A stretch of 64,000 nt of DNA from Natronosalvus rutilus. GTDB taxonomy: Archaea; Halobacteriota; Halobacteria; Halobacteriales; Natrialbaceae. Location of the stretch: assembly GCF_024204665.1 (NCBI RefSeq), contig NZ_CP100355.1, forward strand, positions 2,337,451-2,401,450. The letters are read 5' to 3'. Shown here piece by piece: positions 52,770 through 59,873 of this stretch (position 1 is its first letter; each line of letters starts with the position of its first letter). The notes below the pieces were generated by a model that had not been told where the DNA came from, did not search any database, and saw nothing but the letters and a program-made list of their open reading frames with translations. The position numbers were made by a program, and so were the translations under genes.

Positions 52770-53482
52770 TGCAGTCGAATCAGCAGGCCTACGACCGCGG
52801 GACGTCGATCTTCTCGCCGGACGGCCGGCTCTACCAGGTCGAGTACGCACGCGAGGCCGTCGCTCGAGGGAGCCCCGTCGTTGGCGTGGAAACGACCGAC
52901 GGCGTCGTATTCGTCGCCGACAGTCGAACGCCCTCGCCCTTGCTCGCGAACGACAGCGTCGAGAAACTCCACGACCTCGACGGCCGACTGGCCGCCGCGA
53001 GCGCGGGCCACGTCGCTGATGCACGCCGCCTCGTGGATTACGCTCGCCGGTACGCTCAGGAGGAGCGACTCCGGTACGGGGAGGCGCCGGGCGTCGAACC
53101 GGTCGCCACGGCCGTGGCCGACCACGTCCAGGAGACGACCCAGTCGGGCGGCACCCGACCGTTCGGGACCGCGCTCCTGCTCGGCGGGGTCGACCCGGAG
53201 CCGCGGCTCTACGAACTCGACCCCTCCGGGTTGACCCGGCGCTGGCGAGCGACGGCGATCGGCGGCGACAGCGAGGCGATTCGGGCGACGCTTGAGGCGA
53301 GCTACGAAACAGGCCTCGAAGCGACGGAAGGACTGACCGTCGCGCTACGGGCGCTTGACGACGGACGCGAGGCCGAATGGGACGGAGCGTCCGTCGACGT
53401 CGCCGTGGTCGACTCGAGTGGAATCGATCGGTTCGATTCCCAGCGGTGTGCACAGGCGCTGGTGGACGCCGAGCTCACCTAA
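52769..53482 (+). CDS. proteasome alpha subunit
   Basis: 237 aa non-catalytic ring subunit. The gate and ring signature is complete: QAYDRGTSIFSPDGRLYQVEYAREAV, with YDR. The rest follows the alpha fold (DARRLVDYARRYAQEERLRYG, GTALLLGGVDPE). The ATG overlaps the beta stop codon, so the two are translated together and could form one 20S core. It lacks the long acidic C-terminal tail seen in many haloarchaeal alpha subunits. Likely a paralogous set rather than the main one. Confidence 0.92.
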   Translation: MQSNQQAYDRGTSIFSPDGRLYQVEYAREAVARGSPVVGVETTDGVVFVADSRTPSPLLANDSVEKLHDLDGRLAAASAGHVADARRLVDYARRYAQEERLRYGEAPGVEPVATAVADHVQETTQSGGTRPFGTALLLGGVDPEPRLYELDPSGLTRRWRATAIGGDSEAIRATLEASYETGLEATEGLTVALRALDDGREAEWDGASVDVAVVDSSGIDRFDSQRCAQALVDAELT

Positions 53483-53626
53483 GTCGGTCACACGCCCTCA
53501 GGGTCACGGAGAGTGCTTGTTTAGTCCGAAACCAACCGGCACATACGGATGCGAACTGAGAGTGCGAGTAAAATGGCTGTTTGACCGTGGCGAAGGTATA
53601 TCATCAATAGTTGAATATATTTGCCT

Positions 53627-54118
53627 ATGAACCGTCGCCAAGCCCTCACGTTTACTGGTGTCGCCTTCGCATCCGCTTTTGCTGGTTGTTTGGGGAACAT
53701 TAGTGGAACAACTCCCGAAAACGAAGATGACGACAATAACTCGGCTAACTCCGGACACGATGCTGAGATGGAAGACAACCCATCCGGTTGTTCTTTCAAT
53801 GTTGAAATAGTCGAAGACCCCCCTGATGATGCTCTGCTCGTCATCGCCGAAGATGAAAATTTGAGGGAGATTGAGATTATAGACCGGATTTTTGAAGAGG
53901 CCACTAATTCAGAAAAACAGCACGGGACGGTGACGAGGGGAAGCGGGGAGTACGAACAATTCTCCGTGGTACCAGAATCAACCGACGAATTTGAAGAGGC
54001 AAAAGCGACGCTCAAATCGCTTCCCCAGTATGATAATCCCGTTTACCCATCGGGAGTCTACGTGAAATCCGAAAGTGATGAAATTGTGGTAGCAATCGTT
54101 GAGCAATGTCAAACATAA
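53627..54118 (+). CDS. lipoprotein of the low-GC island (1)
   Basis: 163 aa. Signal RRQALTFTGVAFASAFAGC with twin Arg and lipobox. The mature part begins with an Asp/Asn/Glu-rich tether and then a small domain (CSFNVEIVEDPPDDALLVIA, IEIIDRIFEEATNS, EFEEAKATLKSLPQYD, FVVxIVEQC-like end). Codon use is AT-richer than the core genes. Two Cys in the mature domain may pair. No family recognised; likely acquired. A fragment of the island repeat, TCCGAAACCAACCGGCACAT, lies upstream near 53525. Confidence 0.72.
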   Translation: MNRRQALTFTGVAFASAFAGCLGNISGTTPENEDDDNNSANSGHDAEMEDNPSGCSFNVEIVEDPPDDALLVIAEDENLREIEIIDRIFEEATNSEKQHGTVTRGSGEYEQFSVVPESTDEFEEAKATLKSLPQYDNPVYPSGVYVKSESDEIVVAIVEQCQT

Positions 54119-54144
54119 CGCCTTCGTGTGTTGTGTTTTACATG

Positions 54145-54279
54145 CACTGAACGATCATGGACTCTCGTAAATCGCCTCTCATCTCGTGCTACATTCGCGC
54201 TCTGTATGCAGCACCAACTCAGCAGACTATCGATTTCTGGCAGCTCGAGGCTGCTGCACACAGAGGATGGGTTCAGCAC
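54145..54279. repeat. compound repeat copy 1 (paired inverted 29-nt palindromes)
   Basis: Left arm 54145-54185 (CACTGAACGATCA...), 29-mer A at 54186-54214 (GTGCTACATTCGCGCTCTGT then ATGCAGCAC), a 36-nt spacer, and 29-mer B in inverted orientation at 54251-54279 (CTGCTGCACACAGAGGATGG then GTTCAGCAC). Between two lipoprotein genes; matches copy 2 in layout and spacing. Confidence 0.7.
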
Positions 54280-54338
54280 AGCGACTTCAGTTGTTTCACG
54301 ATGAAATCAGTGAACCATCCGCTTACTACACGTGTTGA

Positions 54339-55067
54339 TCAAAAGCATTCGAGGAGATTGCCGTCTTCGACTGGATCGGGCGGCTCTTTTATGACCGTTC
54401 TCTCATCGCCGAAATACCGTTCATGGAGGCGGACGACTCCGGTCTCATCGACCCCGTAGACTGCCTCGTCGCTAAAATTATCATCACCGACGAAATACCC
54501 GTCGTGCGTTCTGTACTCTACGGGTGGAGCAAAACTGATTCCAATCACCGTGATCTTGTCGTAGAGATCAAGAATTCGTGTCGGGTCTCCCCAATTGTCA
54601 AGGATCTCTGCTCCAGCGCTAATTGCTCGTTTCCCGTACTCCGACACGGCCTTATTTTGCTGGTAGGCGTCTTCGTACTCGTACACGTATTCTATCAGCG
54701 ATTCTTCGTCGAACGTACTCGGTGGCTCCGGATACGGCTTGATACCCACGCTGTGTAACTCGTCGATTTCACCGTTCGGCTTCTCTAACTCGAACGTCTC
54801 ACAAACATCCCCGGTAGGTTCGGGGCGACCAGCGTTCGCACAGTTACGACGACCGGCGACCGAGTCTGGACCGGGAAACGGGCCGTTAGTATGGTCATCT
54901 GCCCACTCCGCTTTCGACGTACAGTCCGGGACAACGTTCTCATCGGTGGAGTTTTTATCGTCCAAATTGGCTGAATTTTCACCCTGTGGATCGAGGTTGG
55001 CGATGCAGCCACCCGCCCCGAGGAGGACACTCACAGCACCCGCAGCGAGAAGTTCCCGACGATTCAT
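54339..55067 (-). CDS. lipoprotein of the low-GC island (2)
   Basis: 242 aa from ATG 55067 (MNRRELLAAGAVSVLLGAGGC), a Tat-type lipoprotein signal. After an Asn/Asp-rich tether the mature part has several Cys (VVPDCTSKAEW, GRRNCANAG, GDVCETFEL) and a C-terminal mixed alpha/beta domain (DLYDKITVIGISFAPPVEYR, YGVDETGVVRLHERYFG). Composition AT-rich for this genome. The gene faces the other lipoprotein convergently and is bracketed by repeat copies 1 and 2. Function unknown. Confidence 0.72.
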   Translation of the reverse strand: MNRRELLAAGAVSVLLGAGGCIANLDPQGENSANLDDKNSTDENVVPDCTSKAEWADDHTNGPFPGPDSVAGRRNCANAGRPEPTGDVCETFELEKPNGEIDELHSVGIKPYPEPPSTFDEESLIEYVYEYEDAYQQNKAVSEYGKRAISAGAEILDNWGDPTRILDLYDKITVIGISFAPPVEYRTHDGYFVGDDNFSDEAVYGVDETGVVRLHERYFGDERTVIKEPPDPVEDGNLLECF

Positions 55068-55163
55068 ACTGTATTGTATGTCAGTACGGTAAGGTGTCTT
55101 AAATAGATACTCCAACCTCAAGGAGTGATTTGAGCTACAGCCATTCGATATGTATCTCACCTA

Positions 55164-55298
55164 TACTGACCGTTCGCTACCCTCGCAGATCGGCCTTCGG
55201 CTCGTGCCACAGTCGCGCTCTCTATTCAGCAGATTGTGATTGAACTATTGGTGCGCTGACAAAAGCGGCGTGCTGAATACAGAGAATGGATGCAGCAC
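55164..55298. repeat. compound repeat copy 2
   Basis: Left arm from TACTGACCGTTC at 55164, 29-mer C at 55204-55232 (GTGCCACAGTCGCGCTCTCT then ATTCAGCAG), a 37-nt spacer, and inverted 29-mer D at 55270-55298 (GTGCTGAATACAGAGAATGG then ATGCAGCAC). A further shared tail, CGACCTCGTTTATTTCA, follows D and resembles the tail after B. Confidence 0.7.
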
Positions 55299-56228
55299 AT
55301 CGACCTCGTTTATTTCAATCACATTAGATGGAACTAACCGGTACGGATGGGTGGGAACTGAACATGCTCCCTAACGAATGGAGGAGTTCGCAGAGGGATG
55401 GGCGCTTCTATGATCGTATTGCCCAGATTACCTTGGTGATCATAACCGCGATAGTGGTCCGGAAGATGTGTGTAGAGGTGGCCTATGAACGAATCTAGGA
55501 TGAGGTTTCTGAGTGGGGTTATCGCTCGAGATGGCTTCTAGACAGAGGGAAGGCGTGAGCAGGAGAAAGAGAGTGGCCCGAAAAGAGGGAGAAACCACGC
55601 TCTCAAAAGTTCATAATCGGTTTCCCTCTTGCGCTTTCCGGGTTGGCGGTAACCAGGAAGAGAAACACTACGAAGAGAGCCTCAAGTCAATCTGACGAAA
55701 TCGGATTCGACGGTATAGAGCCTTCTCCGGAGGGATCACACTCACCCGCTCGAGTCGATCGTAGGCCCGGTCAGTACACGACTCGAAAGTTCATAATCGG
55801 TTCCCTGCTATCGGTTTTGAGTTCTAGACAGCACCAGAATTTCCGAAGAGACTGCGACCTCTCTCGAGAAGGCAAACACACTCGAGAGCACGTCTCGAAC
55901 CGGTTATGCACGTTTGACGCTTCGGGCCCTGCATCTACGAAGCGAGTACCGATCACGAAACGGACCTCGCTCACCCATCAGTCTCGGCAATTACCAGAAT
56001 ATACGTGAATAGCCCCTAATCGCCTCGTGAGGCCTCATACTCGACGATTGGGACACAAGCCTTGCTCTCGAGGAAGATCCTCATCATGCAATCATGCCTA
56101 GACTATCTTCATAATCGGTCCTCGAACAGAGACCAAACCCACTCTTCCGGATGTAGAACCCGATTATGAGGTATCTGAAACGCGATTAGGACGTTTTATT
56201 GTAATTCTCAGTAGATTATAAGAGTTGT
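55299..56228. other. gene-free low-GC stretch with short repeats
   Basis: No supported gene in about 930 bp. A motif containing TTCATAATCGGTT occurs at 55606-55627 and 55786-55806 (exactly 180 bp apart), partly at 56108-56121, and inverted at 56156-56170. Several CTAG tetramers occur here, unlike the rest of the window. It may be decayed coding or mobile DNA. Confidence 0.5.
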
Positions 56229-56257
56229 CTGCTGAATATAGAGGATGAGTTCAGCAC
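56229..56257. repeat. compound repeat copy 3 (single 29-mer)
   Basis: 29-mer E (CTGCTGAATATAGAGGATGA then GTTCAGCAC) with the tail CTCGTTTATT and then CCGAAACCAACCGACACATA, which also occurs near 53525. Only the right half of the compound unit is present. Confidence 0.6.
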
Positions 56258-56458
56258 GGTACTCTCGTTTATTCCTCACGTTTTGGCCGAAACCAACCGA
56301 CACATACAGCTCCGTACCGACCGAAGAGAGGTCACTATCAAGTCACTAGTTGTTACTCTGTTTGAGATTGTTCAGATGGTTGGATCTATAATCAGGACTG
56401 CAAAAACGCGTGATCATCGGAACAATAATCGTACCTCCGAGATGACTTTTTCTAGTTG

Positions 56459-57484
56459 ATGACTGGTCATAAGAACACCTTTGAGAAGTTTGCCACCGTC
56501 GAAGCACACGGTTCCTCACCCCTTTACGAAACGCTCTCGCTCAGCATCGCGGACGACGAAGAAATCCTCGCCCTTACTGGGGAAGTTCCTGCTGACCAAC
56601 CTGCGCCGAATCTACTTTTCGCCGCAGTACAGTATCTCCTCTTTGAGCGTCCCGATGAGGTTCTTGCAGACTACTTCCCAAATACTTCTGAATTGTCAAA
56701 GCTCCCGAGAGAAGGTGCGTATGAAGCGTTTCGGAATTTCTGTCTCTCTCATCGAGACGACATCATTTCGCTCCTGCAGTCGCGCCGTGTCCAAACAAAT
56801 GTGATTAGTCGGAGTTCCATTCTACTCCCCGTGTTTGAGTACCTCTCCCGCCGATGCAATCGGATTCCTCTCGGGGTGGTCGAAATCGGCCCGAGTGCGG
56901 GCCTGAATCTCCTGTTCGACAAGTATGGCTATCAGTACGGACGGTACGGGAAGTACGGCGACCCGAAGTCCCCTGTACAACTGTCGTGTGAAGTCCGTGG
57001 TGATGAGGAACCGCCACTGCCGAAAGAACTACCGCTATTGGGAAAGAGACTCGGAATCGACCTCAATACACTTGATGTCCGGAATGAAGACGACGTTCGC
57101 TGGCTTCGCGCTCTCATCTGGCCCGAACACGAGGAGCGGCGGAATCTCATTGAAGGTGCCGTTTCCGTGGCACGTGAGTCACCGCCAGAACTCATCGAAG
57201 GAAATGCGCTGACTGACCTAGAGAACGTTTGTAGCGAAGTTCCCGAGAATGAACAGCTGTGTATCTTCAACACGCACGTTCTCTATCAATTCACAGTTGA
57301 ACAGCAAGAGGAGTTCGCGGAGTTATTTGGCGAAATTGGCCAGTCCCGTGACCTATTCTGGGCGAACTGTGAGTGGCACGGAGACGAACCGGAAGTACGG
57401 TTCGTTGAATATGTCGATGGAACGAAATCCATCGACGTACTAGCACTCTACGATTCACACGGACGATGGATAGAGTGGTGTTGA
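56459..57484 (+). CDS. DUF2332 family protein
   Basis: 341 aa, start at ATG 56459 (a TTG precedes it by one codon). The DUF2332 pattern is clear: an N-terminal helical part, then PLGVVEIGPSAGLNLLFDKYGYQYG, and a C-terminal IFNTHVLYQFTVEQQEEF. The GPSAGLNL loop resembles a nucleotide- or SAM-binding turn, but the biochemical role of the family is not established to my knowledge. AT-richer composition and CTAG sites suggest acquisition together with the island. Confidence 0.88.
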   Translation: MTGHKNTFEKFATVEAHGSSPLYETLSLSIADDEEILALTGEVPADQPAPNLLFAAVQYLLFERPDEVLADYFPNTSELSKLPREGAYEAFRNFCLSHRDDIISLLQSRRVQTNVISRSSILLPVFEYLSRRCNRIPLGVVEIGPSAGLNLLFDKYGYQYGRYGKYGDPKSPVQLSCEVRGDEEPPLPKELPLLGKRLGIDLNTLDVRNEDDVRWLRALIWPEHEERRNLIEGAVSVARESPPELIEGNALTDLENVCSEVPENEQLCIFNTHVLYQFTVEQQEEFAELFGEIGQSRDLFWANCEWHGDEPEVRFVEYVDGTKSIDVLALYDSHGRWIEWC

Positions 57485-57659
57485 TAATACCGTCAAGGTA
57501 GAGAAACGTACTACCGACGCTGGTACGTAACGGCGCTTGTCTTTCACTGAGCGTCGCGGAAATACTCGATCTGTTGAGAGGGATGCGACTGGGCTTTAAA
57601 TGAACGTTCGTCTCCCTTGCTAAATTTGCACCACATACTTAGCGGCTAACCGGTGTGCG

Positions 57660-57797
57660 GCGATATACTCGCGCCCTGTACTGACCGATCACCGATCTTC
57701 GCAGATCACCCCTCAGACTGTGCCACATTCGCGCCCTGTACTGAGCGTTTGACCTTCCGCGTTGATCCCTCTCAGCCCGTGCAACATTCGCGCCCTG
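57660..57797. repeat. tandem 60-bp repeats, copy 4 of the compound repeat
   Basis: TCGCGCCCTGTACTGA occurs at 57669-57684 and again exactly 60 bp later at 57729-57744; a third unit begins at 57788 (TCGCGCCCTG) and is interrupted by the IS. Each unit resembles the left arm plus 29-mer of copies 1 and 2. Joining 57779-57797 to 58741-58750 restores a complete 29-mer. Confidence 0.65.
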
Positions 57798-58732
57798 GGC
57801 CTTGTTTAGACGCGTGAAATCAGCCGAGTTAGGTCGTGAGCGATTGTTCGATGTTTCTGACGGCAGCCTTTAGGACGAGTTCTCGGAACTGCCCAAACCA
57901 CGTTCTTGCCTTAAGTGTTGAACCGAAACGCTTGCGCAACGCAAAAAATATCGATTCTGCGATAGACCGTTGATGGTAGGTTTTATCATCAATCCGAGCA
58001 TTGTGTGCGGCGTCGAGCGAATAGAACTCACGATGCTTGATTACCGGTCTAATACCCTCACTTCGCAGCATCTGCCGAAGTTTATCCCAATCAAACCCTT
58101 TGTCAGCGACGACAGTTTCCACGGTACTGAGATTTCTTTTCAGGACTTGCCACGCAATTTGCGTGTCATGTGGTAGGTTCATCGAGCAGTGTATGTCGAG
58201 AATAGCTCGCGTAGAGCAGTCTACGAGAATAGTGGTTTTGACCGACTCAAACGTCCCTTTGACGCGTTTTGCGTAGTTATGACTCGACGAGCGATGAGCG
58301 ATGCTAGTCGAGTCGATCGCCTGGACCTCTCCGGTATCGAATAGTTCCGCCGACAGCTGCAACAACATCCGCCAGACTGGCATCTTGAGCTCTTGTTTTC
58401 GAGCACAAACAGTCGTGAAGTCCGGCAGCTCATCCGGTAAAAGGCCGAGTTTGGCGACGATATCGGGCATTTCCCGGAGTACATCGAGCAACTGTCGATA
58501 GGAGTGATCGAGGTATTCACGAAGGCCGTGAATCGCCACGATCACCCAATCAGCGTAGCCATCTTTTCCTTTGCTGAGGGGTTCTTTCTGATCACTTCCG
58601 ACAGCTTTTTGAGATAATTCGACGCATCGTTCGGTGAAGCGGGCCAGTCTGGAGTGCACATCCGACCGTGCTCGCTTCATTTCCTAGAAATCCCGACATA
58701 GAGGCAATATTACTAGCGCCTAAACACGGCCC
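57798..58732 (-). mobile_element. IS5-family insertion sequence
   Basis: About 935 bp. Terminal inverted repeats: left GGCCTTGTTTAGACGC, right (minus strand) GGGCCGTGTTTAGGCGC. An 8-bp target duplication GCGCCCTG flanks it (57790-57797 and 58733-58740). The single transposase gene is intact. The insertion interrupts a 29-nt palindromic repeat. Confidence 0.85.
57829..58680 (-). CDS. IS5-family transposase
   Basis: 283 aa DDE transposase. Asp in VQAIDSTSIAHRSS, Asp in VETVVADKGFDWDK, and Glu in RSIAESIFFALRKRFG give the complete DDE triad. The N-terminal third is the helical DNA-binding region. Full length with no frameshift, so the element is potentially active. Composition similar to the surrounding island. 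Confidence 0.93.
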   Translation of the reverse strand: MKRARSDVHSRLARFTERCVELSQKAVGSDQKEPLSKGKDGYADWVIVAIHGLREYLDHSYRQLLDVLREMPDIVAKLGLLPDELPDFTTVCARKQELKMPVWRMLLQLSAELFDTGEVQAIDSTSIAHRSSSHNYAKRVKGTFESVKTTILVDCSTRAILDIHCSMNLPHDTQIAWQVLKRNLSTVETVVADKGFDWDKLRQMLRSEGIRPVIKHREFYSLDAAHNARIDDKTYHQRSIAESIFFALRKRFGSTLKARTWFGQFRELVLKAAVRNIEQSLTT

Positions 58733-58814
58733 GCGCCCTGTATTCAGCACGGTCACAGAAACCTATCATTCTTCGAGGGTTTCAATGGCCGAAGAACGTA
58801 CTCTCGAGGGCCGA

Positions 58815-59816
58815 TCAGACAGTCGCGCTCTCGTCGCTCGAGTCCGTCTCGAGTGCGGGTTGCGTCTCGTCGTCCTCGGCCGTCGATGGTTCGTTCGCAT
58901 TCGCGTCGGACCCGGAATCGGACCTGGCGGCGTCGTCGGTACTCGGCCGTCGGCTGCTATCCACGACTGTCCCGTCCCCGATGACGTAGAGAAGCAACGT
59001 CTCGTCCTCGAGTCGTGTACTCACGAGGAGACACCACGGATCGCTCGAGATGACGCGCTCGCGCCACTCGCGACCGACGTTCCAGAGCGAGCGCTCCTGG
59101 ACGTCGTGGTCGTGTTCGTGGTAGAACGAGACGACCGCGGGGTGCTCGAGGATGGCGAGGGTGACCGGGCAGCGAAGCGATGCTCCGCAGGCCTCACAAT
59201 CGAAGGCCAGTTGGACGCGGTCTGGACCGTCGGCTTCGTCGTCGGCCGTTCCGGCTACGGGTTCGACATCCGCCGTCGTCGCGCCGCCACAATCGGGGCA
59301 GACGCCGTCGGCGAACGTCCGAATGCGGTGACGGTGATAGGAGTCGAGGGCCGCGGGTATCGAGTCCGGATCGCGGGTCACGTACCCGCTCGGCGGGAAC
59401 GACAGTTCCAGAATCGGCGCCTCGCACGCCTGGCACACCACTCGAGAGACGTTGTCGGAGACGGTCGCGACCAGTTCGGTCTCCTCGCAGAACGGGCAGG
59501 GCTCGGGGAGAGCGATCGACTCGTGATCCACGCTGTCGGTGTAGGTGCCCGCCCGGATCGCCCGGCCGACCTCGCGGCCGGCGTAGGTGAGTTCGTACCG
59601 ATCGTCCTCGCGCTGTCGGACGAACTCGCCGGTTAGCTGTCGGAGGTGGTAGGCGAACCCCGCCGACGTGTCGGTATCGCTCGCCTCAAATAGTTCGGAG
59701 AACGTGCACGGGCCGTCCGCGAGCAGGGTCCGGACGGTGCGCATCCGGATCTCGTTTCCGAGCGCCTGGAACGCGTCGCTGGGGGCTGGGCCGTCCTCAG
59801 CGGATCCGGTATCCAT
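58815..59816 (-). CDS. ArsR-like HTH regulator with zinc-binding domains
   Basis: 333 aa. N-terminal winged helix (DAFQALGNEIRMRTVRTLLA, FSELFEASDTDTSAGFAYHL) followed by two Cys clusters (CPFCEETELVATVSD with CQACEAP; CPDCGGATTADV with CEACGASLRCP) that form zinc-ribbon modules. The C-terminus is a Ser/Asp-rich disordered tail. This layout is common in haloarchaea as a putative regulator. ATG 59816 chosen (nine codons after an upstream alternative). Confidence 0.85.
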   Translation of the reverse strand: MDTGSAEDGPAPSDAFQALGNEIRMRTVRTLLADGPCTFSELFEASDTDTSAGFAYHLRQLTGEFVRQREDDRYELTYAGREVGRAIRAGTYTDSVDHESIALPEPCPFCEETELVATVSDNVSRVVCQACEAPILELSFPPSGYVTRDPDSIPAALDSYHRHRIRTFADGVCPDCGGATTADVEPVAGTADDEADGPDRVQLAFDCEACGASLRCPVTLAILEHPAVVSFYHEHDHDVQERSLWNVGREWRERVISSDPWCLLVSTRLEDETLLLYVIGDGTVVDSSRRPSTDDAARSDSGSDANANEPSTAEDDETQPALETDSSDESATV

Positions 59817-59873
59817 GTCACTGTTTGTGATACGAGCGGCCAAAACCCTGTCGGCGGCGGGGTGATCAGACGG

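Follow-up and report, generated by a model that had tools for sequence, protein, structure and literature searches.

How does an archaeal genome come to carry, in an island of low guanine-plus-cytosine (GC) content, several copies of a compound repeat built from two inverted 29-nt palindromes held at a constant distance? The question arises from an island in a 64,000-nt stretch of the Natronosalvus rutilus genome (contig NZ_CP100355.1, positions 2,337,451 to 2,401,450; hereafter the window), for which a preliminary description had proposed either a mobile miniature element or a regulatory RNA or hairpin serving lipoprotein genes. Our analysis indicates that the compound repeat is the junction of two adjacent gene cassettes, and that the 29-mers are probably the boundary and recombination sites at which such cassettes are exchanged by a dedicated recombinase acting in trans. 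The observations behind this reading concern the anatomy, order, orientation and fixed spacing of the cassettes, their replacement between fixed flanks, and breakpoints located in the 29-mers.

The 29-mer occurs in two forms, namely P, which is preceded by a left arm (consensus GTGCnACATTCGCGCtCTGTATkCAGCAC), and its inverted partner P2, which is followed by a tail (consensus GTGCTGAATACAGAGGATGnATkCAGCAC). Its architecture is that of a dyad in which two 10-nt arms flank a 9-nt core (10-9-10), since a search of 125 genomes for near-perfect palindromes with any gap from 0 to 28 nt returned gaps of exactly 9 nt only. The window's genome (G000; G numbers designate genomes and L numbers array stretches or loci) contains 31 matches to P at up to three mismatches, versus none for the reversed control pattern, which places the repeat well above any chance level. 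A wider search of haloarchaeal genomes, as the preliminary description had suggested, recovered the repeat in 28 of the 195 genomes of the order (up to two mismatches), distributed over 18 of 66 genera. An exact-pattern scan of 84,980 species returned 27 stretches, all of them haloarchaeal but for two metagenome-bin contigs; these two (L089 and L098) come from bins named Thermoplasmata and Rhodobacteraceae and are probably misbinned. No match to the exact 29-mer pattern was found in the viral contigs scanned.

Separate profiles of the left arm with P (LP) and of P2 with its tail were run over 40 array stretches and the window, and the resulting cassette layout reads P2 (core CAGAGGATG), tail A, gene, left arm and P (core CGCGCTCTG). 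Along the site orientation, the modules P2, gene and LP are repeated in units arranged head to tail, about 0.2–2.3 kb in size and mostly containing one gene; P2 was followed by LP 89 times and LP by P2 68 times, versus 34 breaks. Adjacent sites were in the same orientation in 133 cases and in opposite orientations in 13, with a median gap of 660 bp. Neighbouring cassettes are joined by P, a spacer and P2, the spacer measuring exactly 37 nt in 52 of the 56 distinct LP-to-P2 junctions; the conserved spacing on which the preliminary description relied, and whose loss elsewhere would have counted against it, is thus kept across many genomes. At L228 (G232:C1:849,000-863,000), two dense arrays of opposite orientation converge at about 4.4 kb, more than 20 modules being packed into 13 kb.

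A single open reading frame (ORF) of at least 90 amino acids was present in 52 of 90 clean cassettes and none in 20, and the genes lie on the strand opposite to the site in 40 cases and on the same strand in 30. Pfam scans of the cassette ORFs identified accessory genes with no function common to all, including DUF2332 proteins (in cassettes of the window, G232 and G094), HTH_10/BAT regulators, GNAT acetyltransferases, glyoxalase, MFS with TetR, TauE, NUDIX, response regulators, HAD hydrolase, subtilase, histidine kinase and membrane proteins. The same scans found no recombinase among these ORFs, and transposition genes were limited to one of IS5 type and one TnpB gene.

Cassette replacement could be followed at three orthologous loci of same-genus species, where the flanks are common up to the outermost 29-mers (about 88–98% identical) and the genes between them are replaced. 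At the locus of the window's array, G000, G228 and G238 have flanks of about 89–92% identity, which enclose intervals of 5.3, 0.96 and 1.56 kb, respectively; these contain lipoprotein genes, a non-coding cassette and a DUF2332 gene in G000, a NUDIX protein in G228 and a response regulator in G238. The L019 locus harbors a single EamA cassette in G000 and elsewhere either CNNM or a methyltransferase, DoxX and a third ORF, while the L011 locus (flanks about 95% identical) encodes either a 92-aa protein or a lipoprotein, an AsnC-type regulator and HalOD1. Flank homology extends into the 29-mers at the compared loci, the left array end in the window having lost its first P2. Cassettes also recur at other places: the G228 lipoprotein cassette is found on contig C3 of G000 (L268 1758-2931 matching L151 10112-8941, 81.7% over 1,178 bp), the CNNM cassette at 1.32 Mb of G000 (L266 1482-2247 matching L157 8975-9736, 96.2%), and a 488-bp cassette on both C1 and C2 of G000, the chromosome and a plasmid-size contig (L158 8277-8764 matching L160 8676-9163, 98.8%). 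Most of the few differences between the copies of the latter lie in the outer parts of both 29-mers. Finally, L158 and L220 have the left flank, the first cassette and the right flank in common and differ in the middle.

Across the 73 homologous blocks identified within arrays, 46 of the 146 block ends fall in a 29-mer in both copies, compared with a mean of 0.13 and a maximum of 2 in 2,000 random permutations. In well-resolved pairs, identity begins at CAGAG in P2 (ATA/CAGAG or nearby, the slash marking the breakpoint) and ends at CCTG or nearby in P, as exemplified by GTGACCGACT/CAGAGGATGAG versus ATGCAAGATA/CAGAGGATGAG; the outer arm therefore goes with the context and the core with the cassette.

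The low-GC island of the window, with a GC content of 0.49–0.54 versus about 0.65, is one such array and comprises four cassettes. The elements recognised earlier all reappear in it, namely two complete copies of the same layout (54,143–54,340, spacer 36 nt; 55,159–55,365, spacer 37 nt), a right half on its own (56,229–56,325) and a tandem left unit of about 60 bp (57,675–57,797). Its parts are as follows:

53,518–58,790, + strand: whole island, a cassette array between a proteasome-subunit gene (ending at 53,482) and a regulator gene (58,815–59,843), supported by GC content and orthologous-locus comparison.
53,519–53,561, + strand: tail A remnant at the left array end, terminal repeat and first P2 lost; the flank homology of G228/G238 stops at 53,517.
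53,627–54,118, + strand: cargo gene of cassette 1, lipoprotein-like, without Pfam match.
54,143–54,185, + strand: left arm L of cassette 1 (nhmmer profile LP, 61 bits).
54,186–54,214, + strand: 29-mer P, right boundary of cassette 1.
54,215–54,250, + strand: compound-site spacer of 36 nt (37 nt elsewhere).
54,251–54,279, + strand: 29-mer P2, left boundary of cassette 2.
54,280–54,340, + strand: tail A of cassette 2.
54,339–55,067, − strand: cargo gene of cassette 2, lipoprotein-like, opposite to the site, without Pfam match (start codon picked by inspection).
55,159–55,232, + strand: left arm L and 29-mer P (55,204–55,232) of cassette 2.
55,233–55,269, + strand: second compound-site spacer, 37 nt.
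55,270–55,365, + strand: 29-mer P2 (55,270–55,298) and tail A of cassette 3.
55,366–56,228, + strand: cassette 3, non-coding and conserved across the genus (9 aligned copies), with the next P2 coming immediately after it and no left arm or P in between.
56,229–56,325, + strand: 29-mer P2 (56,229–56,257) and tail A of cassette 4.
56,456–57,484, + strand: cargo gene of cassette 4, DUF2332 protein (Pfam PF10094, E 4.5e-102).
57,675–57,797, + strand: left arms in tandem, all including the inner portion of P; the second P covers 57,779–57,797, up to the insertion sequence (IS).
57,798–58,731, − strand: IS5-family IS inserted centrally in the last 29-mer, with its transposase at 57,829–58,680 (NCBIfam NF033579, 212 bits).
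58,741–58,750, + strand: outer arm TATTCAGCAC of the last 29-mer P.
58,751–58,790, + strand: terminal module B with inverted repeat end GGGTTTCAATGGCC, right array end (supported by alignment to the orthologous right ends of L264 and L265).

The IS splits the last 29-mer of the array into two parts at 57,779–57,797 and 58,741–58,750, and the 9-nt core CGCGCCCTG is duplicated around it (57,789–57,797 and 58,732–58,740). IS5-type ISs with ends GG(G)CCTTGTTTAGACG were also observed inside 29-mer cores at L156 (15,847–16,818), L009, L046 and L219 (4,405), the one at L156 being a near-identical copy of the IS found at window 57,798–58,731. Since the duplicated target in the window is exactly the 9-nt core, this suggests a target specificity of these ISs for the core of the 29-mer. 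Separately, the non-coding cassette at 55,366–56,228 (about 880 nt) has copies in L157, L158 and L218-L223 with 82–86% identity, contains three copies of the motif TTCATAATCGG and one of its inverse, and directly abuts a P2. It might be a leader-like element or a novel RNA; the signal for a structured RNA in it was weak and inconsistent.

Many arrays start with GGCTCTGTTGAAATCCTCA...GATAGGAATCGG ahead of P2 and carry the reverse complement after P at their end. Some are enclosed by inverted repeats GGCTCTGTTGAAA... and by 8-bp target duplications, as in IS5-family transposons; the duplications are perfect in six units (L055 ATGAATTC, L019 GGCGACTC, L089 ACCGTGAC, L072 AAATCGTG, L082 TCAGGTTT and L079 AACTGCAC) and match at 7 of 8 positions at L011 and L165, with a chance of about 0.0004 per pair. 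The duplication-flanked unit of L165 contains three cassettes, and at L051 (position 2081) the same terminal repeat is followed 52 bp inwards by a partial IS5-type transposase. Because of these target duplications and of the terminal repeat in common with the L051 transposase fragment, the array ends look like the ends of non-autonomous IS5-type transposons. The mobile miniature element envisaged earlier is thereby partly retained: terminal inverted repeats and target duplications argue for mobility, but the unit is a gene cassette bounded by the 29-mers and not a miniature one. Likewise, the flanking duplications whose search had been advised exist at the array ends but not at the inner cassette junctions. 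An origin from the IS6 family was also considered and rejected, a terminal-repeat scan of IS6 transposase loci having given no match.

These features can be accommodated in a two-step scheme. For at least some arrays, platforms with GGCTCTGTTGAAA... terminal repeats would have inserted once as IS5-type elements, and cassettes would later have entered and left at the 29-mers, through an exchange point close to where the 10-nt outer arm adjoins the 9-nt core. The 10-9-10 dyads would be bound by a dedicated site-specific recombinase acting in trans, most likely of the tyrosine type because of the position of the exchange point at the arm/core border, and the mobile form may be a circle carrying P-37-P2.

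A number of observations weigh against this scheme. One boundary is missing in some cassettes (19 LP-to-LP and 15 P2-to-P2 successions), and the two profiles were derived from the very data set on which they were run. The homologous blocks are not independent, the count falling to 18 of 80 ends in 29-mers without the most repeated cassette family, and certain pairs have a 29-mer so well conserved that the breakpoint cannot be located in it. No array-linked recombinase was found: of the 70 tyrosine-recombinase loci scanned, only 10 contain a site. Each of the seven genomes examined for tyrosine recombinases has such enzymes, and the commonest linked integrase family is present in 151 of the 195 genomes, far more widely than the repeat. 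No excised circle was seen, and scans of 195 and 125 genomes revealed no empty palindromic target site.

Five of the 70 integrase genes belong to that one related family (39–58% identity, one pair being orthologous), and most of them end near an array. As the family is near-universal in the order, it is no specific candidate and its co-occurrence with the arrays is uninformative. A XerA-like gene located 325 bp from an array (L306 2536-3471, G232) scores below the IntI and XerA cut-offs and is a lead only. By eye, integrase genes ending about 0–330 bp from an array end (L281, L304, L305, L300, L299 and L306) exceed expectation, an adjacency that possibly results from shared islands.

Could known processes generate the same pattern? 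Each unit might be a mobile insertion cassette (MIC), that is, a passenger transposon without transposase mobilized in trans by IS5-family transposases, the arrays resulting from adjacent or nested insertions. The GGCTCTGTTGAAA... repeats with their 8-bp duplications and the L051 transposase within the same repeat fit this explanation; however, repeats and duplications are found at array ends and not around each cassette, the inner junctions display a fixed 37-nt spacer without duplications, and flanks are kept while the cassettes between them change, in a single orientation, which makes it unlikely. Alternatively, dispersed repeats might undergo ordinary homologous recombination or gene conversion, the 29-mers being passive; in favor of this, recombination is efficient in haloarchaea, and unrelated cassettes have repeats of 44–70 nt in common in the form of their left arms and tails. 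The breakpoints, however, lie at the outer arm/core border instead of being spread across arms and tails, 29 nt is short, cassettes move between diverged genomes, and the 10-9-10 and 37-nt geometry would be left unexplained, so we regard this explanation as unlikely too.

The partly complementary halves of the repeat speak for the regulatory RNA or hairpin for lipoprotein genes. Folding of three sites on both strands was no better than that of shuffled sequences (z −0.25 to −1.76), the halves covary weakly (p 0.016), no Rfam match exceeded the threshold, and the genes are of many kinds and on either strand; this proposal was dropped as very improbable. Palindrome-associated elements derived from IS200/IS605 transposons (PATEs) are scarcely credible here: Haloquadratum provides examples with near-terminal palindromes targeted by other elements (PMC3119063), but only 5 of 45 IS605-type loci had a profile match with E <0.001, not placed like IS ends, and PATEs are without the target duplications seen in the present elements.

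The proposed cassette exchange at the 29-mers invites comparison with integrons, which likewise consist of arrays of small, mostly single-gene accessory cassettes and also include arrays without a linked integrase (CALIN-like); their cassettes are exchanged by recombination at short sites, as is probable for the present ones. The sites described here differ in being double-strand dyads at both cassette ends, 37 nt apart at junctions; moreover, the genes show no strongly prevailing orientation with respect to the site, and the platforms have IS5-like inverted repeats. The R boxes of attC sites (RYYYAAC ... GTTRRRY) were found in none of the 56 compound sites (shuffles average 0.7), the three sites folded above showed no significant single-strand hairpin of the attC kind, and no integron integrase lies beside the arrays among the 70 tyrosine-recombinase loci scanned. 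Because attC boxes, a stable single-strand hairpin and an array-linked integrase were not found, the arrays are not integrons. Archaeal integrons have been described in metagenome bins of nine phyla (PMC9668308), and the haloarchaeal terms that we looked for are absent from the main text of that report.

IS5-type MICs and miniature inverted-repeat transposable elements resemble the arrays in their IS-shared terminal inverted repeats, target duplications, passenger genes and absence of transposase, but only the array ends match, the inner cassettes being bounded by 29-mers and replaced singly. Repetitive extragenic palindromic (REP) sequences and bacterial interspersed mosaic elements (BIMEs) are also paired inverted palindromes and attract specific ISs, whereas the palindromes described here delimit exchangeable genes. 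The PATEs and SMRs of Haloquadratum walsbyi are likewise haloarchaeal and transposase-free, with palindromes targeted by other elements, but are without cargo genes, arrays or target duplications (PMC3119063). Whether the arrays represent a haloarchaeal system of cassette capture and exchange, with paired 10-9-10 dyads, a 37-nt spacer and IS5-spread platforms, whose sites and probably enzyme are unrelated to those of integrons, seems to us an evenly balanced question.

We found no description of haloarchaeal integrons or cassette arrays in the open-licence literature searched. Intense gene exchange is a known haloarchaeal trait, and a platform trading single accessory genes at fixed sites is, as far as the open-licence papers searched show, undescribed in these organisms. 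If true, such a system would constitute a second, independent solution to the task performed by integrons and would explain many of the small low-GC islands of haloarchaeal genomes, while offering a practical route to cataloguing mobile genes and to seeking a new recombinase.

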